From a virus, in IMG/VR virus record IMGVR_UViG_3300020420_000038, positions 1-35,912 of that record: DNA of 35,912 bases. One strand, given 5' to 3'. Below are positions 17,500 through 34,214 of this stretch, piece by piece (position 1 is the first letter of the stretch; each line of letters opens with the position of its first letter). The notes beneath the pieces are model-generated. The model saw only the letters and a list, made by a program, of their open reading frames with translations, made no database searches and had not been told where the DNA came from. The translations under genes were made by a program, and so were the position numbers.

Positions 17500-17757
17500 A
17501 TGGCAGAATTTAAAGCATCTGATTATTCAGAATTTTATCGTTTAGCTTATACAGGCAAAGAAGAATCATGGGGTTCTGGTATGAGTGAAACCACAAATGA
17601 TTCTAGTAAATTAAAGAAATGGTTAAAGATAGGTACTGTTGTTGTAGCAGAAACAGGTTTTGACCCAACACTATTAGTTAACGATACTGTTACTTTGACT
17701 AAAATAACTGATGCTGACTTGTTAACAGCAGCAAAGAAAGAGATTAACTGGGAGTAA
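17500..17757 (+). CDS. small protein after the fibre genes, unknown function
   Basis: 85 residues with no recognised domain. The sequence has a compact N-terminal part (FKASDYSEFYRLAYTGKEESWGSG) and a C-terminal part rich in Thr/Val/Leu strands (VVVAETGFDPTLLVNDTVTLTKITDADL). It lies four bases after the fibre gene and touches the next gene, whose start directly follows its TAA. Co-location with the fibre genes suggests a virion or fibre-assembly role, but this is inference only. Confidence 0.65.
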   Translation: MAEFKASDYSEFYRLAYTGKEESWGSGMSETTNDSSKLKKWLKIGTVVVAETGFDPTLLVNDTVTLTKITDADLLTAAKKEINWE

Positions 17758-18225
17758 TTGGATTATCCACAGATTGATATACCAGAAAATTTAGTACCGC
17801 CTAAAACAATTTTTTATCCACCTGTGGCAGACGTTCCATATTTAGACCCTCTACTTCTTCCAAGTCTGGAACAGGTAGAGTCGGGTTTGGGAGGTCAGGA
17901 ATCTTCTGCTGAAGAAGAAAAATCATCTTCAAAGGAGGAAGGGTTAGAATTAACACCAGAGACAATACCGACAAACCTGCCAAACACCAAAGAAATTTTA
18001 TCAACTGAAGAACCTGTAGCTACATTTAATATACCTTTTTTTGGGGAAATGCCTATACCTGCCCCAGAGGTTATAGCATCAAGTGTAATAGCTAGTGGGG
18101 TGTCAGCCACAGCAGCAGTAACAGGTTCAATAGTTTTGCAAAGCGTTATTAATCAGCTAAAGAAAGTAATGACAAAGATATTTAAGAAAGTACTTAAGAA
18201 AGAAATTGCAGATAACAAGAAATAA
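17758..18225 (+). CDS. proline/glutamate-rich membrane-anchored small protein, cyanophage type
   Basis: 155 residues from a TTG that follows the previous stop with no spacer. The N-terminus DYPQIDIPENLVPPKTIFYPP is a recognisable start of a small protein I associate with marine cyanophages. The middle is disordered (Glu/Ser/Pro). Residues about 110-135 form a hydrophobic segment (APEVIASSVIASGVSATAAV), followed by a Lys-rich amphipathic tail (VMTKIFKKVLKKEIADNKK). This gives one probable membrane span with a basic cytoplasmic-type tail. Function is unknown; candidates are a virion-associated membrane protein or a lysis helper. The TTG start is chosen because the reading begins exactly at DYPQID and no ATG is nearby. 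Confidence 0.7.
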   Translation: MDYPQIDIPENLVPPKTIFYPPVADVPYLDPLLLPSLEQVESGLGGQESSAEEEKSSSKEEGLELTPETIPTNLPNTKEILSTEEPVATFNIPFFGEMPIPAPEVIASSVIASGVSATAAVTGSIVLQSVINQLKKVMTKIFKKVLKKEIADNKK

Positions 18226-18241
18226 GGTATAGTATATTTAC
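18225..18241 (+). promoter_or_regulatory. candidate phage promoter at the end of the structural operon
   Basis: The run AGGTATAGTATATTTAC begins at the stop codon of the upstream gene. It closely resembles AGGTACAATAAATATAC upstream of the SSB gene, and both are followed within ten bases by a hairpin that begins with GTCTT. This suggests a phage RNA-polymerase promoter with a 5' stem-loop on the transcript. An AT-rich host -10 element would look similar, so confidence is low. Confidence 0.35.
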
Positions 18242-18243
18242 AA

Positions 18244-18377
18244 GTCTTTCCGCAGACAACACACATTTAGGTTAAATAACCTCTGACCTAAACAAAGTGT
18301 GATACAACGAAAGACAAGAGGTTTAGGCGAGTGTACCTGCTTGATCTCTCTTCTATTGACGAATAGTAGATGACCTC
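18244..18377 (+). ncRNA. candidate structured RNA in the spacer between converging operons
   Basis: Three nested helices are visible: GTCTTTC (18244-18250) with GAAAGAC (18309-18315), CACAC (18260-18264) with GTGTG (18297-18301), and TTTAGGTTA (18266-18274) with TGACCTAAA (18284-18292). A second domain pairs GAGGT (18318-18322) with ACCTC (18373-18377) and contains CTATT/AATAG (18353-18366). Alternative pairings exist: AGGTT/AACCT inside the first loop, and GTTTAGG at 18321-18327 with CCTAAAC at 18287-18293. There is no T-run, so it is not a standard terminator. The helices would also form in the minus-strand transcript, so the strand is uncertain. Confidence 0.4.
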
Positions 18378-18420
18378 AAGATTCCGTCAATGCCCTTGCA
18401 GTGGTCAACGGATTTATGAA

Positions 18421-18451
18421 ACGAACACAAGTGGTAACTTGTTAAATTCGT
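18421..18451. other. hairpin between the structured spacer and the minus-strand operon
   Basis: ACGAA (18421-18425) pairs with TTCGT (18447-18451), enclosing CAAGT/ACTTG with a GGTA loop. It lies 18 bases beyond the end of the minus-strand operon and could protect or terminate either convergent transcript. No T-run accompanies it. Confidence 0.4.
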
Positions 18452-18468
18452 ACCTCCTCTACAGAGCG

Positions 18469-18999
18469 TTACTCGCCTTTAAATTTTTCGGAATTAGCTT
18501 TAACATAACTTCGTATATTAATGACATCACTACAGATGTATGCGTATTTAGAAGCAGGGTTTATCATATAGCCACTTGCGTGAAGCTGACTGCATTTCAA
18601 AATACGAACTAGCTGTTTATCATGGACTTGCTTGTCTAGTTCTTCTTTGGCTAGGTCTAGCTTTACTTTGGATAATTCGTTACAAGTTTGATTATCTCCC
18701 AGAGGTATCATAAAACTCATCTGTACTCCCCAACCTTCGTTTATAGAATAAGTTTCTTCGCCCTGTGCATCATTTCCTGTATAGAAAGGAGTTACAGCCA
18801 AAGTAGGTTGACTACAAACTAAGTTTCCAAACTGTTGTTTACCTGTCATTCCATTATTAATATTCATATTCTGGTTGATAATACTTGAATTACCAACAGC
18901 ATTTGGTTGAGCCTGTACGTTTGTATCGCCTTCGGCTCTTACTTTACTGACTAAAGACAGACAAAGAAGTGATAACGCTAGTAGTCGTAATCGCATCAT
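18469..18999 (-). CDS. exported cyanophage-type protein with signal peptide, unknown function
   Basis: 176 residues. The N-terminus (MMRLRLLALSLLCLSLVSKVRAEG) is a clear signal peptide: Arg residues, a long Leu/Ser core and an A-R-A cleavage site. The mature part has an Asn-rich stretch (NMNINNG), a beta-like middle (YSINEGWGVQMSFMIPLGD) and a helical C-terminal half with four Cys (TCNELSKVKLDLAKEELDKQ, LKCSQLHASGYMI, YAYICSDVI). I recall similar proteins in marine cyanophages, without known function. It is last in the three-gene minus-strand operon, overlapping the preceding gene by 56 bases. A periplasmic or outer-membrane job during lysis or adsorption is plausible but unproven. Confidence 0.75.
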   Translation of the reverse strand: MMRLRLLALSLLCLSLVSKVRAEGDTNVQAQPNAVGNSSIINQNMNINNGMTGKQQFGNLVCSQPTLAVTPFYTGNDAQGEETYSINEGWGVQMSFMIPLGDNQTCNELSKVKLDLAKEELDKQVHDKQLVRILKCSQLHASGYMINPASKYAYICSDVINIRSYVKANSEKFKGE

Positions 19000-19309
19000 T
19001 CTGTGTGATTTGTTCTATTTTAGTTCCTGATGCTCTAGTAGTTATAGCTAACGACCAATCAGAGGTAACAGTTTTAGGAGTAAAAACTGCATCTGCGTGT
19101 GCTATACCACCACTAGAAGCACTTGTAACTTCTATATTTGATGCTTCCCAACTAGACAAAGCAGACCCATATTTCTCAGTAACTATAGACCTTGTAATAG
19201 TCTGGGTTGTGTTTTCAGTTCTATTAGATGAACCTGTAGTCCACGTTGGCACTCCGTTTGCATAACAAGGAGCAACTAAAAATAAACCTAGTAAGAGTAG
19301 CTTTTTCAT
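18944..19309 (-). CDS. exported small protein with signal peptide, unknown function
   Basis: 121 residues. MKKLLLLGLFLVAPCYANG is a signal peptide with a likely cleavage after CYA. A lipoprotein signal is less likely because VAPC is a poor lipobox. The mature part is Thr/Ser-rich and beta-strand-like (WTTGSSNRTENTTQTITRS, FTPKTVTSDWSLAITTRAS). Its start overlaps the stop of the membrane-protein gene upstream by four bases (ATGA), which indicates translational coupling. Cyanophage relatives of this type are familiar to me, but their role is not known. It could be a virion decoration or a cell-envelope factor. Confidence 0.75.
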   Translation of the reverse strand: MKKLLLLGLFLVAPCYANGVPTWTTGSSNRTENTTQTITRSIVTEKYGSALSSWEASNIEVTSASSGGIAHADAVFTPKTVTSDWSLAITTRASGTKIEQITQNDAITTTSVITSLSVFSQ

Positions 19310-19545
19310 TTGATGCCTACTTTAGAGTTCTTATTATCTACTATAGTATCTTTTTTCTTCTTTATCTGAAACCCTAGTGAAGCAGTACTAGCTGAAAAAA
19401 TACTTGCAATAAATGTCGGGTCAAAATCTACAATCTTTTTACCAGATGGCGGTTCATAGTATGAGAGAGATAATAGCGTTGCCGACCAAAGAAGTACACA
19501 AACTTTGACAATGGTTTCGACTCTACTAGGTTCTTGATCTTCCAT
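19306..19545 (-). CDS. small two-span membrane protein, holin candidate
   Basis: 79 residues with two hydrophobic segments, about residues 12-30 (VKVCVLLWSATLLSLSYY) and 42-58 (FDPTFIASIFSASTASLGF), followed by a KKKK cluster and a charged tail. Size, two spans and a basic C-terminus fit a class II-like holin. In T7, the holin 17.5 lies between the fibre gene and the terminase genes, the same slot as here but on the opposite strand. First gene of the minus-strand operon. No endolysin gene is visible nearby, so the holin assignment is inference. Confidence 0.6.
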   Translation of the reverse strand: MEDQEPSRVETIVKVCVLLWSATLLSLSYYEPPSGKKIVDFDPTFIASIFSASTASLGFQIKKKKDTIVDNKNSKVGIK

Positions 19546-19612
19546 GAAAAGTTAAGACTCTTGTTTAATACTACCAAGTTAGCTATGTTTGGAAAGTAAC
19601 ACAATAGTTATT

Positions 19613-19777
19613 ATGCTAAAAATCTTAAAACCAATACTACTAAAATTCTTTACCACTACTGCTGTAAAGAGATTAGTAGTTGATTTGCTTAGAGCAATCT
19701 GCAAACAAACTAGCAACACGCTAGATGATCGTGCTGTGGATATGTTGGAGCAACAACTATTCCCAAAACTGAACTGA
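19613..19777 (+). CDS. small amphipathic protein (54 aa), unknown function
   Basis: 54 residues from ATG 19613: basic/hydrophobic N-terminal helix (MLKILKPILLKFFTTTAVKR) and an acidic helical C-terminal part (LDDRAVDMLEQQLFPKLN). A TTG at 19589 would add eight residues but has no better signal. Divergent from the minus-strand operon and separated from the next gene by one base. Short proteins with this KPxLLKFxxxxxVKRLVVDLL pattern are familiar from cyanophages. The helix could associate with membranes. Confidence 0.6.
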   Translation: MLKILKPILLKFFTTTAVKRLVVDLLRAICKQTSNTLDDRAVDMLEQQLFPKLN

Positions 19778-26985: not shown

Positions 26986-27146
26986 TGAATACCCTAGATA
27001 AAATTAACGCTGCCACTCAGCGTATCAAAGAACTAACAATCCTTATTAACCATTGGAGTCACGACCTTGAAAAAGAAAGTACCAACATTAAAACAAGCTG
27101 CGAACAAAACTTATCGCAGGAGAAAGAACGGAGATGTATCAGCTAA
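26982..27146 (+). CDS. possible small protein overlapping the integrase start (54 aa)
   Basis: A 54-codon frame opens at an ATGA overlap with the zinc-ribbon gene stop (MMNTLDKINAATQRIKELTILINHWSHDLEKESTNIK..., ending RCIS). The N-terminal half looks like a coiled-coil helix. It overlaps the integrase reading frame by 80 bases, which is long for this genome. It may be a true coupled gene or a leader that carries the integrase ribosome binding site. Evidence is limited to coupling and helix-like composition. Confidence 0.4.
   Translation: MMNTLDKINAATQRIKELTILINHWSHDLEKESTNIKTSCEQNLSQEKERRCIS
27053..27069 (+). promoter_or_regulatory. ribosome binding site and TTG start of the integrase
   Basis: TTGGAGTCAC ends eight bases from the Shine-Dalgarno GGAG (about 27055-27058) to a TTG at 27067. 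The GGAGTCAC core is shared with other early genes, which decides the TTG over a later in-frame ATG near 27163. A weak start codon would keep integrase low. Confidence 0.6.
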
Positions 27147-27906
27147 AGATTTTCTTATTAGCATGAAACATAATGTTCAAGCACTTGGAGACATACCAGT
27201 AAACAAGATTACTACCAGTCTCATAAGTAAAATGAATGACTACAACAAGTCAAGACCTAACTGTAATGAAGTAGTCAACAAGAAAATGGGTCATCTCAAG
27301 CTAGTGTTAAAAGACTGTAGAGATGATGGGTATATAACTATGCCTGAGTTTCCTGACCCTAGACGTGTCAAGAAGAATAAGAAGGTACACTACCTGACTG
27401 CTGACATGGAAAGAGAACTCATGTCTTATCTGACTTGCTTCAACTACCACGAACACCGAGATGTATTTAAGTGTTTAATTGATACAGGTTGCAGGGTCAT
27501 GGAACTACTGACACTTGAGAAAAGATTTGTTGACTTTAAAAAGAATCAAATCACATTCCAATACAGGAAGAACGGAAGACCTAACACAGTACCTATGACT
27601 ACTGCTGTCAGGTCTATCATCAAGCCTTACTATGACAAGTGTAATACCTTAGACCTACTGTTCGATCACGACTACTACTGGGCTAGTAGTATCTTTGCTA
27701 AAGCTAAGAAGGAACTAGGGTATAGCAAACACAAGTGGTATAAGATACATTTGTTTAGAGATACCTGTGGTTCAAGACTTGCTCAAGCAGGGGTACACAT
27801 ACTGATTATGCGAGACTGGTTAGGGCATGAAGACGTACAAATGACAGAGAAGTATTCACACCTAGCACCTGACTCTATGCACCAAGTAGTAGGGGTGTTG
27901 AACTGA
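27067..27906 (+). CDS. int: tyrosine recombinase / integrase
   Basis: 279 residues. The N-terminal part (about 1-95) is a core-binding domain (FLISMKHNVQALGDIPVNKITTSLISKMNDY). The C-terminal catalytic domain has TGCRVMELLTLE with Arg143, HLFR with His228 and Arg231, LGHEDVQMTEKYSHL with His254 and the nucleophile Tyr263. All tyrosine-recombinase active-site residues are present, so the enzyme should be active. Cyanopodoviruses such as P-SSP7 also carry an integrase upstream of the RNA polymerase. I see no tRNA fragment that could be an attachment site and no repressor gene. The ATG of the next gene overlaps the stop (TGATG). Confidence 0.93.
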   Translation: MKKKVPTLKQAANKTYRRRKNGDVSAKDFLISMKHNVQALGDIPVNKITTSLISKMNDYNKSRPNCNEVVNKKMGHLKLVLKDCRDDGYITMPEFPDPRRVKKNKKVHYLTADMERELMSYLTCFNYHEHRDVFKCLIDTGCRVMELLTLEKRFVDFKKNQITFQYRKNGRPNTVPMTTAVRSIIKPYYDKCNTLDLLFDHDYYWASSIFAKAKKELGYSKHKWYKIHLFRDTCGSRLAQAGVHILIMRDWLGHEDVQMTEKYSHLAPDSMHQVVGVLN

Positions 27907-31744: not shown

Positions 31745-33353
31745 AGAAGTTTGCCCTGAGTGTGGCAAGAAAAACTGTGCGGTCTTTAGTGATGGACATA
31801 AACATTGTTTCACTATGGACTGTGGCTATACCTACTACCCCAACAAGAAAAATTTATCTGTTGCCTACACAAAAAAAATGATAGACAAAGTGACACCACT
31901 ATTTAAAACAAGTCCTAAGTTATTGAAGGTAACACCCATAGCATTATCTAAACGTGGAATCACTAAAGAGACTTGCGAACTATTTGGATATGGACAGGCT
32001 GAGTATAAAGGTATGCCTGTTCAAGTAGCTACATACAAAGATCAAAAGGGTAATGATGTAGCACAGCATATTAGATTTCCTGATAAGAAGTTTGCTTGGA
32101 TAGGAGACATATCAAACGTACAGCTATGGGGTCAGCATCTATGGAGACAGCATGGTAGTAATGGTTCAGTGTTTGTCAGTTGCTTCGAGGGAGAGATTGA
32201 CTGCATGAGTGGGTCACAGATACAAGGCAACAAGTTTCCCTGTGTATCTATTCCGTCAGGTGTACAGTCAGCAGCTAAGTATCTAGCAGCAAACTACAAA
32301 TGGTTAGATACTTATTGTCGTATAGTTCTATGCTTTGATAATGATGAAGCAGGTAATAAAGCAGCAGAGAAATGTATGGAAGTCTTACCTAAAGGTAAGG
32401 TTGCCATAGCAAGACTAGATCGTAATGACGTGAACGATCATCTTGTATTAGGCGAAGGAGATATAGTACAGGAAAGATTATGGAAGGCTAGACCAGTTAG
32501 ACCTGACTCTCTTATCAATGCAGCAGACGCATGGGATTTGTTTACCAAAGCAACAAGCAAACCTATATCAGACTTTCCGTTTCCCAAGTTAAATGAATAC
32601 ACAAGAGGTTTGTTTCCTAGTCAGCTATTCACAGTAGCTTCCGCAAGTGGGGCAGGTAAATCAACTATTTGTAGAGAACTGGCATATCATTTCTTATCTA
32701 ATAATTTAAAGCTAGGTTATATAGGATTAGAAGAATCAGTACAAAGAACTTTGCAAGGACTTGTTGGTATTGATCTCAATGTACCTTTACATCTTGAAGA
32801 AGAAAAAATAGATAAGGAAGACTTGAAGCAGTCGTTTGATAAGTTGACATCTACTCGCAACTTATATTTATACAATCACTTTGGCAGCCTTGAACCTGAT
32901 GTATTACTAGAGCAGATAAGATACTTAGCTACAGTTGATGGAGTGCAAGTAGTCATACTAGATCACATAAGTATAGTCATGTCAGGTCTTGAGTTAGATA
33001 ATGAAAGACGTGCCATAGACGTGACAATGACCAAGCTAAGAAGTTTGTGTGAAGCAACTGGCATAGCACTAATACTTGTTAGTCATTTAAGAAGACCGCA
33101 AGGACAATCACATGAGTCGGGCAGAGACATAGATACAGCAGACTTAAGAGGTTCACATTCTTTATTACAGTTATCTGATGTAGTCTTATCAGCATCAAGG
33201 AATCAGACAGGAGATGAAAGCGAAAGGTCAAGACTAAAATTAAAGATACTCAAGTCAAGACATACTGGTATGACAGGAGAAGTAGATAAGTTATTGTACG
33301 ACCAGAAGACAGGTCGGCTAGTAGTTTATGAAAACACATTCGGAGACTTATGA
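31722..33353 (+). CDS. primase/helicase (T7 gp4-like)
   Basis: 543 residues (T7 gp4 is 566). The N-terminal zinc-binding domain has CPEC at 11-14 and Cys29 and Cys34 after FSDGHKH; the second pair is spaced four residues, wider than in T7. The toprim primase domain has SCFEGEIDCMSG and IVLCFDNDEAGNKA. The helicase domain has Walker A SASGAGKST (Lys313), Walker B VVILDHISI (Asp414), LILVSHLRRP and LRGSHSLLQLSDVVLSASRNQ. It unwinds DNA and makes primers. The C-terminus ends soon after the helicase core (YENTFGDL) without the acidic tail that T7 gp4 uses to hold its DNA polymerase. Overlaps the exonuclease by four bases. Confidence 0.94.
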   Translation: MKSQYKIKEVCPECGKKNCAVFSDGHKHCFTMDCGYTYYPNKKNLSVAYTKKMIDKVTPLFKTSPKLLKVTPIALSKRGITKETCELFGYGQAEYKGMPVQVATYKDQKGNDVAQHIRFPDKKFAWIGDISNVQLWGQHLWRQHGSNGSVFVSCFEGEIDCMSGSQIQGNKFPCVSIPSGVQSAAKYLAANYKWLDTYCRIVLCFDNDEAGNKAAEKCMEVLPKGKVAIARLDRNDVNDHLVLGEGDIVQERLWKARPVRPDSLINAADAWDLFTKATSKPISDFPFPKLNEYTRGLFPSQLFTVASASGAGKSTICRELAYHFLSNNLKLGYIGLEESVQRTLQGLVGIDLNVPLHLEEEKIDKEDLKQSFDKLTSTRNLYLYNHFGSLEPDVLLEQIRYLATVDGVQVVILDHISIVMSGLELDNERRAIDVTMTKLRSLCEATGIALILVSHLRRPQGQSHESGRDIDTADLRGSHSLLQLSDVVLSASRNQTGDESERSRLKLKILKSRHTGMTGEVDKLLYDQKTGRLVVYENTFGDL

Positions 33354-34084
33354 CTTTACTAATTGATGCAGACTGGTTGATCTACAATTCATGTTGTGCC
33401 TGTGAAGAAGACACAAGATGGACTGAACACGAACATACTCTTCATTCAGATGAAAGAGATATAATGAATATGATTGACAATAGAATAGATGTATATAAAA
33501 CCATAGCAGGAGAGAAGCATGACATAGTTATGTGCTTTACTTCTTACCCAACATTCAGGCATGAGATATTTCCAGAGTACAAGATACATAGGATAGGTAA
33601 AAGAAAACCACTAGCTTTGAGATCAGTAATTAATAACTGTAAAAAAATATATGACTGTGTATCTTATCCAAACCTTGAAGGAGATGACGTGCTTGGATTA
33701 CTAGCTACAAACGGACAGTATAAGAATCCAATAATAGTATCAGTCGATAAGGACATGAGAACCATACCTTGTAAGCTAATAGCTGCTGATGAAGTAGAAC
33801 ATATTACAGAAAAGAAAGCTAATAGACACTGGTTTGAAATGTCTATAGCAGGAGACAGTACAGACGGAATAATAGGAGTTAAAGGTACAGGCATGGTAAC
33901 TGCCAATAAATTACTAGCAGATACACCTGACACCATAGATGCACTGTGGTCTAAGGTTGCTGAAACATACACAAAGAAAGGCTATACCTTGGCTGATGCC
34001 ATACTCAATGCAAGACTTACAAGGATACTTAGAGAAGGAGACTATGACTACAACACAGGGGAAGTAAAACTTTGGCAGCCATAA
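33350..34084 (+). CDS. 5'-3' exonuclease, FEN-like (T7 gp6-like)
   Basis: 244 residues (T7 gp6 is 300). Family features: MTLLIDADWLIYNSC at the N-terminus (first metal Asp), NLEGDDVLGLLAT and IIVSVDKDMRTIP (acidic metal ligands), then SIAGDSTDGIIGVKGTGMVTANKLL, the helix-hairpin DNA-binding loop. It removes RNA primers and degrades host DNA to nucleotides. In T7 and related cyanopodoviruses the DNA polymerase gene lies between primase/helicase and this gene; here the two overlap as ATGA, leaving no room. It is not a polymerase itself: no family A fingers or palm motifs are present. Confidence 0.9.
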   Translation: MTLLIDADWLIYNSCCACEEDTRWTEHEHTLHSDERDIMNMIDNRIDVYKTIAGEKHDIVMCFTSYPTFRHEIFPEYKIHRIGKRKPLALRSVINNCKKIYDCVSYPNLEGDDVLGLLATNGQYKNPIIVSVDKDMRTIPCKLIAADEVEHITEKKANRHWFEMSIAGDSTDGIIGVKGTGMVTANKLLADTPDTIDALWSKVAETYTKKGYTLADAILNARLTRILREGDYDYNTGEVKLWQP

Positions 34085-34087
34085 GAA

Positions 34088-34157
34088 AACCCCCAAGACG
34101 AGTCACTTGTCTCAGGGGTTCTCTACGCTTTACCAATGGGTAACCACTCCCATTGAT
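34088..34157. terminator. double hairpin between replication and structural genes
   Basis: CCCC with GGGG and AGACGAG with CTTGTCT (loop TCA) form a strong stem at about 34091-34119. On the minus strand the stem is followed by TTTTC; on the plus strand only by TTCTCT. A second hairpin AATGGG/CCCATT (loop TAACCACT) follows at about 34136-34155. It is likely a terminator or processing element separating the replication operon from the portal operon. Confidence 0.6.
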
Positions 34158-34182
34158 TAAATTGTAGCATGAAATCTATACA

Positions 34183-34201
34183 AAAGTATTTATATTTTCA
34201 G
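34183..34201 (+). promoter_or_regulatory. candidate promoter of the portal operon
   Basis: The AT-rich AGTATTTATATTTTCAG resembles the 18225 and 30533 sites in its GTAT...TATATTT core and lies just upstream of the first gene after the double hairpin, where a new transcript must start if the hairpins terminate. Similarity is modest. Confidence 0.3.
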
Positions 34202-34214
34202 ATTAAGAGTTACT

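Follow-up and report, generated by a model that had tools for sequence, protein, structure and literature searches.

A candidate modular structured RNA in the spacer between convergent genes of an MPP-C podovirus

In Prochlorococcus much of the regulation is exerted by small RNAs, among them Yfr1. It carries the undecamer ACUCCUCACAC, which contains CUCCUC (PMC2190773). The UCCU of Yfr1 is required for target binding in strain MED4, in which its targets and its pairing with Yfr2 have been reported (PMC6778093). Of the podoviruses infecting these cyanobacteria, P-SCSP2 is an isolate of the MPP-C clade, a cosmopolitan and abundant lineage of podoviruses devoid of a DNA polymerase gene; intergenic and non-coding elements go unmentioned in the main text describing it (PMC9860041).

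The sequence analysed in this work, hereafter “the window”, was the whole 35,912-nucleotide stretch of IMG/VR record IMGVR_UViG_3300020420_000038. Its large terminase had 85% identity to that of P-SCSP2, and the window corresponds to a podovirus near P-SCSP2, of clade MPP-C, infecting Prochlorococcus. An integrase-like gene (27067-27906) matched in position the annotated integrase of P-SCSP2, to which the erratic lysis timing of that phage has been tied (PMC9860041). The initial annotation, made from the sequence, had pointed to a 243-nt spacer between convergent genes; this spacer was present as claimed and contained no T-run, also as claimed (features in Table 1). It is a real, evolutionarily maintained folded element, unannotated and absent from Rfam and from any RNA catalogue. 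We consider that it may be a separate, modular structured non-coding RNA, with a probability of roughly 0.5, and it is also a good candidate for a new family of modular phage RNAs.

Table 1. Position of the genes and predicted structural features around the spacer (window coordinates).
Feature	Position	Strand	Remarks
Gene upstream of the spacer	17758-18225	+	PHROG 9426, unknown function
-10-like hexamer TATAGT, proposed RNA promoter	18228-18233	+	10 nt 5' of the first stem
Cassette A, optional module	18244-18315	+	Helices 18244-18250/18309-18315, 18260-18264/18297-18301, 18266-18272/18286-18292; z -4.55
Cassette G, four-helix	18325-18478	+	Closing helix overlaps the leftward gene at its end
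P1, 5' strand AGGCGAGT of cassette G	18325-18332	+	Pairs with 18471-18478; five pairs changed on both sides
Invariant CCTG	18336-18339	+	CTG 18337-18339 pairs with CAG 18462-18464 (P1b; RNAalifold pair)
P2	18340-18344/18376-18380	+	CTTGA/TCAAG to ACTGA/TCAGT in relatives
P2a, hypervariable hairpin capping P2	18349-18351/18368-18370, 18353-18357/18362-18366	+	Within 18340-18380
P3	18381-18387/18408-18414	+	Within 18381-18414
Joint TTATGAAA	18414-18421	+	First T paired in P3; invariant in all distinct full cores (spacers gathered by flanking gene)
P4 hairpin	18422-18425/18447-18450, 18427-18432/18437-18442	+	Paired changes T-A/C-G and G-C/A-T
Segment CTCCTCTACAGA, joint P4-P1	18454-18465	+	All 12 columns invariant among the 23 distinct cores; CAG pairs in P1b
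P1, 3' strand ACTCGCCT	18471-18478	+	Falls within the final codons and stop codon of the leftward gene
Broken U-rich tract UUUAAAUUUUU / TTTAAATTTTT after P1	18478-18488	+	Just outside the spacer; possible RNA 3' end
Convergent gene	18469-18999	-	Unknown function (PHROG 1755/848); closes the set of three leftward ORFs
Other two leftward ORFs	18944-19309, 19306-19545	-	Unknown function; leftward set spans 18469-19545

The region 18226-18490 was more stable than shuffled sequences, with z of -2.9 and -2.5 for the two strands. The three nested helices previously noticed in the first part of the spacer were recovered as cassette A (none of 200 shuffles was equally stable), and the hairpin placed at about 18421-18451 corresponded to P4. 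The relatives did not conserve the second stem domain drawn at 18318-18377 (GAGG/CCTC closure), supporting P1, P2 and P3 instead; the closing helix P1 had been overlooked because its 3' strand sits in the end of the leftward gene. Switching between two competing folds had also been proposed, since TTTAGG occurs at 18266 and 18322 and CCTAAA only once (18287-18292). All these motifs were there, but the competing pairing was not conserved because the second TTTAGG was replaced by TTCAGG, ACATAGG or TTGTAGG in most relatives; the first cassette was missing in most of them. A pseudoknot seen by eye in the window, between TTGACG in the P2a loop and CGTCAA (18385-18390), was lost in relatives and was discarded. 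The closing helix overlapping the gene, together with the modular mosaic and the second locus described below, goes beyond the initial annotation.

Relatives of this locus (locus 1) were gathered by flanking gene, not by motif. In 23 distinct cores, 98.7% of the cells were paired in the named structure, pairing dropping to 28-48% in slid controls. Fifteen of the 32 pairs were changed on both sides (9.4 in shuffles; 0 of 500 shuffles reached the observed value). P1 was found as AGGCGAGT/ACTCGCCT, AGGCGAC/GTCGCCT or TAGGAAC/GTTCCTA, and as AAGCGAGTG/CACTCGCTT in the reduced form of the core, so that the 3' alleles GTCGCCT, GTTCCT(A) and CACTCGCTT fitted the altered 5' strands. P2, P3 and P4 varied in the same paired manner: P3, AATCCGT/ACGGATT in the window, was swapped for AAGTCTAA/TTAGGCTT, AAGCCTAA/TTAGGTTT or ACATCTAA/TTAGATGT, and the P4 tetraloop, GGTA in the window, was GGAA or GGGA in relatives. 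RNAalifold recovered P1, P2, P3 and P4 independently. Helices kept through compensatory changes, the general mark of a structured RNA, were thus observed. The joints CCTG, TCTC, TTATGAAA and CTCCTCTACAGA were invariant in the 23 distinct cores, and variable columns amounted to 2 of 37 in joints versus 26 of 44 in helices. The invariant joints were also present in 23 of 25 long spacers chosen by flanking gene only, the exceptions being a reduced (L108) and a compact (L234) form. Paired changes and nearly invariant joints support the initial view of a functional RNA rather than a terminator. Covariation in homologous spacers had been suggested as the check: paired changes were found, but a G-test built in-house on a tree-based null gave significance to no single helix pair (the best had E 0.42), because the changes come as few block alleles.

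Other classes of element were searched for and discarded. Rfam 15 gave no match in the window at the gathering threshold (the best relaxed match scored 15.9 bits, the threshold being 35) and only sub-threshold, unconvincing matches in the loci of 17 relatives; those to RT-17 and snoZ17 were regarded as chance. ARAGORN detected no tRNA or tmRNA genes. A short protein-coding gene was rejected, core lengths being spread over all three residue classes modulo 3, as was a minus-strand short ORF after GGAGGTATG in L036-type cores, whose frame was broken in other cores.

Locus 1 was found in several forms: genes overlapping or abutting; a 34-54 nt hairpin; the core, in spacers of about 146-172 nt; and the core plus an upstream cassette (194-254 nt), the form present in the window. 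Most relatives, including P-SCSP1a, had the short hairpin only, while P-SCSP2 had the core form, in a spacer bearing no annotation at all. In pattern scans, the full core was detected in 28 IMG/VR contigs and P-SCSP2, and the reduced core in two contigs, always at locus 1; ten matches from genome collections, considered as host or prophage copies, and six extra viral matches were in unrelated contexts and in about the number expected by chance. Cassette A, absent in most relatives, was present with altered sequence in five contigs (L040, L080, L065, L092 and L108), and the upstream slot of three others (L053, L097 and L109) was occupied by unrelated hairpins. The P2a loop sequence varied among relatives (the hairpin was lacking in L053 and L092), and P2a hairpins and P3/P4 types were freely combined across backgrounds, which points to module exchange by recombination; with modules combined in this way, the cores have no one common tree. 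At the same locus, four contigs (L019, L020, L022 and L148; 363-nt spacer) had about 330 extra bases beside the short hairpin, and in L132, L133, L142 and some 50 more loci the convergent genes overlapped or abutted, with no hairpin spacer.

A search for cassette A in viral contigs revealed five (L290-L294) carrying it elsewhere, 3' of the exonuclease gene (33350-34084 in the window) and oriented oppositely with respect to the genes. When the exonuclease was used as the query, many relatives, the window included, proved to have only simple hairpins at this second locus, and others had arrays of cassettes. At least six kinds of cassette, named by eye and without formal alignment, were present in the arrays of L292, L323, L335, L341, L346, L349, L353, L371 and L373. 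A compact core motif (AAGYAAC-CAGACC...RGARCGTCA-GTTGCTT) was found in these arrays and also at locus 1 of L234 and L069. In one kind of cassette an H-type pseudoknot between the loop and the strand downstream is possible, and by eye the changes on the two sides matched (CCTCCC/GGGAGG, CCCCC/GGGGG, CCCTC/GAGGG). The arrays were preceded, in the orientation of the element, by an extended -10 sequence (GCTATATTG) and followed by a hairpin whose end was TTTCTTTT or TTTTTTT, with the same orientation and antisense to the exonuclease gene. In the window, the two simple hairpins of locus 2 lay in 34085-34214; the second had a conserved loop (TAACCACT) on stems differing among relatives (CAATGGG/CCCATTG, CAAGG/CCTTG).

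The promoter-like site initially placed ahead of the structure held in modified form, as a -10-like box, TATA[GCT]T. All distinct cassette-bearing spacers of locus 1 had it and no short-hairpin spacer did; it followed the upstream gene's stop codon, 6-10 nt before the first stem, and the extended -10 of the locus 2 arrays occupied the equivalent position. A generic sigma-70 scan, however, gave no site on the plus strand at the spacer. The box at 18228 had no clear -35 and could be inherited along with the cassette. A phage RNA polymerase promoter repeat (AAATAAGRTATASTA) was not enriched in the window or in P-SCSP2. At the other end, no intrinsic terminator (GC-rich stem with direct U-run) was detected in 17500-19700, P1 being followed only by the interrupted UUUAAAUUUUU; conservation of this tract is not independent evidence because it also codes for the leftward gene. 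Elsewhere in the window, an intrinsic terminator of textbook form (GGGTAT..ATACCC and a long run of T) was located 3' of the major capsid gene (1468-1502), and P-SCSP2 had a similar one.

The spacer might alternatively be a 3'-end element, an elaborated terminator plus mRNA 3' stabiliser or insulator at the convergence of the operons, in which case the RNA would simply be a 3' UTR, that of the late transcript running rightward. The element is always at gene ends in locus 1, a U-rich tract follows P1, the upstream-slot hairpins of L053 and L109 are followed by TTTTT or TTTT, and the common form in relatives is a plain hairpin across both gene ends, followed by TTAAATTTTT. Nevertheless, the spacer of the window has no canonical terminator in a genome that possesses a textbook one, termination requires neither near-invariant joints nor a -10 box, and the cassettes of locus 2 are antisense to the neighbouring rightward gene; we regard this explanation as somewhat unlikely. 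That the cassettes act purely as DNA, as palindromes kept by phage recombination or as protein-binding or mobile palindromes with no RNA function, would fit modules that move intact between backgrounds and are present at two loci, with either orientation to the direction of transcription. The asymmetric conserved internal loops, the G-U bias, the flanking promoter-like box and the terminator suit an RNA better, and the cassettes were confined to two loci in the sequences searched rather than scattered at random sites, making a DNA-level role improbable.

The strand was considered in the same way, since the RNA could be read from the minus strand, where it would be structure in a 3' UTR, belonging to the leftward operon at locus 1 and to the exonuclease transcript at locus 2. 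On that strand a gene precedes the element at both loci, the element includes a GAGGAGG sequence, and folding energy slightly favoured it (mean z -3.3, versus -2.7 for the plus strand). Against this, non-Watson-Crick pairs across distinct helix alleles comprised 10 G-U and 1 A-C when read on the plus strand (p 0.012; hand-picked cassettes, hand-read helices, short hairpin left out), an excess that favours the same strand, that of the element, at both loci. The GGAA and GGGA tetraloops are of the GNRA type on the plus strand only, and the locus 2 terminator of L373 was more stable in the orientation of the element (-22.6 versus -14.7 kcal/mol), that of L292 being about equal in both (-21.2 versus -21.0 kcal/mol). 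A minus-strand origin thus appears very unlikely.

The separate plus-strand RNA, the reading we prefer, would be produced by host RNA polymerase starting at the -10-like box (18228-18233) and transcribing through cassette A and then cassette G, with a 3' end near 18490, at or beyond P1 and its U-rich tail. Helices closing the molecule on itself would let it persist, and it would probably act in trans through its exposed invariant segments. Invariant exposed segments combined with freely exchanged peripheral hairpins suggest the binding of a partner. The CU-rich segment was ACCTCCTCTACAGA in the window and AACTCCTCTACAGA in relatives; the CTCCTCTACAGA segment resembles the Yfr1 motif, though the exact motif was absent, as an unpaired stretch, from the window and from the cores of the relatives. 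ACCTC recurred as a loop motif in 7 of the 10 kinds of cassette, as seen in 2 of 400 shuffles (representatives chosen by the author). The CU-rich CUCCUCUACAGA would most likely base-pair with a purine-rich RNA (Shine-Dalgarno-like or Yfr2-like); pairing through this invariant segment, as in the host sRNA Yfr1, is a lead only, and a doubtful one.

A wider proposal, speculative and in our opinion rather unlikely, would be that MPP-C phages possess modular non-coding RNA genes of a new class. Each would be an array of exchangeable cassettes under a host promoter and a terminator of its own; six or more kinds of cassette would exist, a possible H-type pseudoknot occurring in one of them, and the cassettes, shuffled at two sites, would share a short CU-rich motif that binds host RNA or protein. 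Should the preferred reading of the spacer hold, a whole layer of phage genes would be absent from the annotation of MPP-C genomes, there would be a concrete candidate for phage control at the RNA level of Prochlorococcus, a host with much sRNA regulation, and the hairpin-by-hairpin exchange among phage genomes would represent an unusual evolution of RNA genes.

Compared with known systems, the element is like Yfr1/Yfr10 of Prochlorococcus MED4, the host of P-SCSP2, in being small and structured and in exposing a CU-rich segment in which CUCCUC occurs; they are unlike in size, fold and flanks, the common part is limited to CUCCUC and a similar start, there was no Rfam match, and CUCCUC was not always kept across the broader family of phage cassettes. 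Rho-independent terminators between convergent phage genes are similar in position, in their hairpins, in the U-rich tract after P1 and in the short form present in relatives, but differ from this spacer, in which no GC stem with U-run was detected and which has a large branched fold, conserved joints and, at locus 2, an antisense placement. The structured non-coding RNAs of phages of the type collected in Rfam are likewise compact, conserved, multi-helix RNAs in intergenic DNA; the element described here differs from them in matching no Rfam family and in exchanging its modules hairpin by hairpin, which to our knowledge is not typical of phage structured non-coding RNAs.
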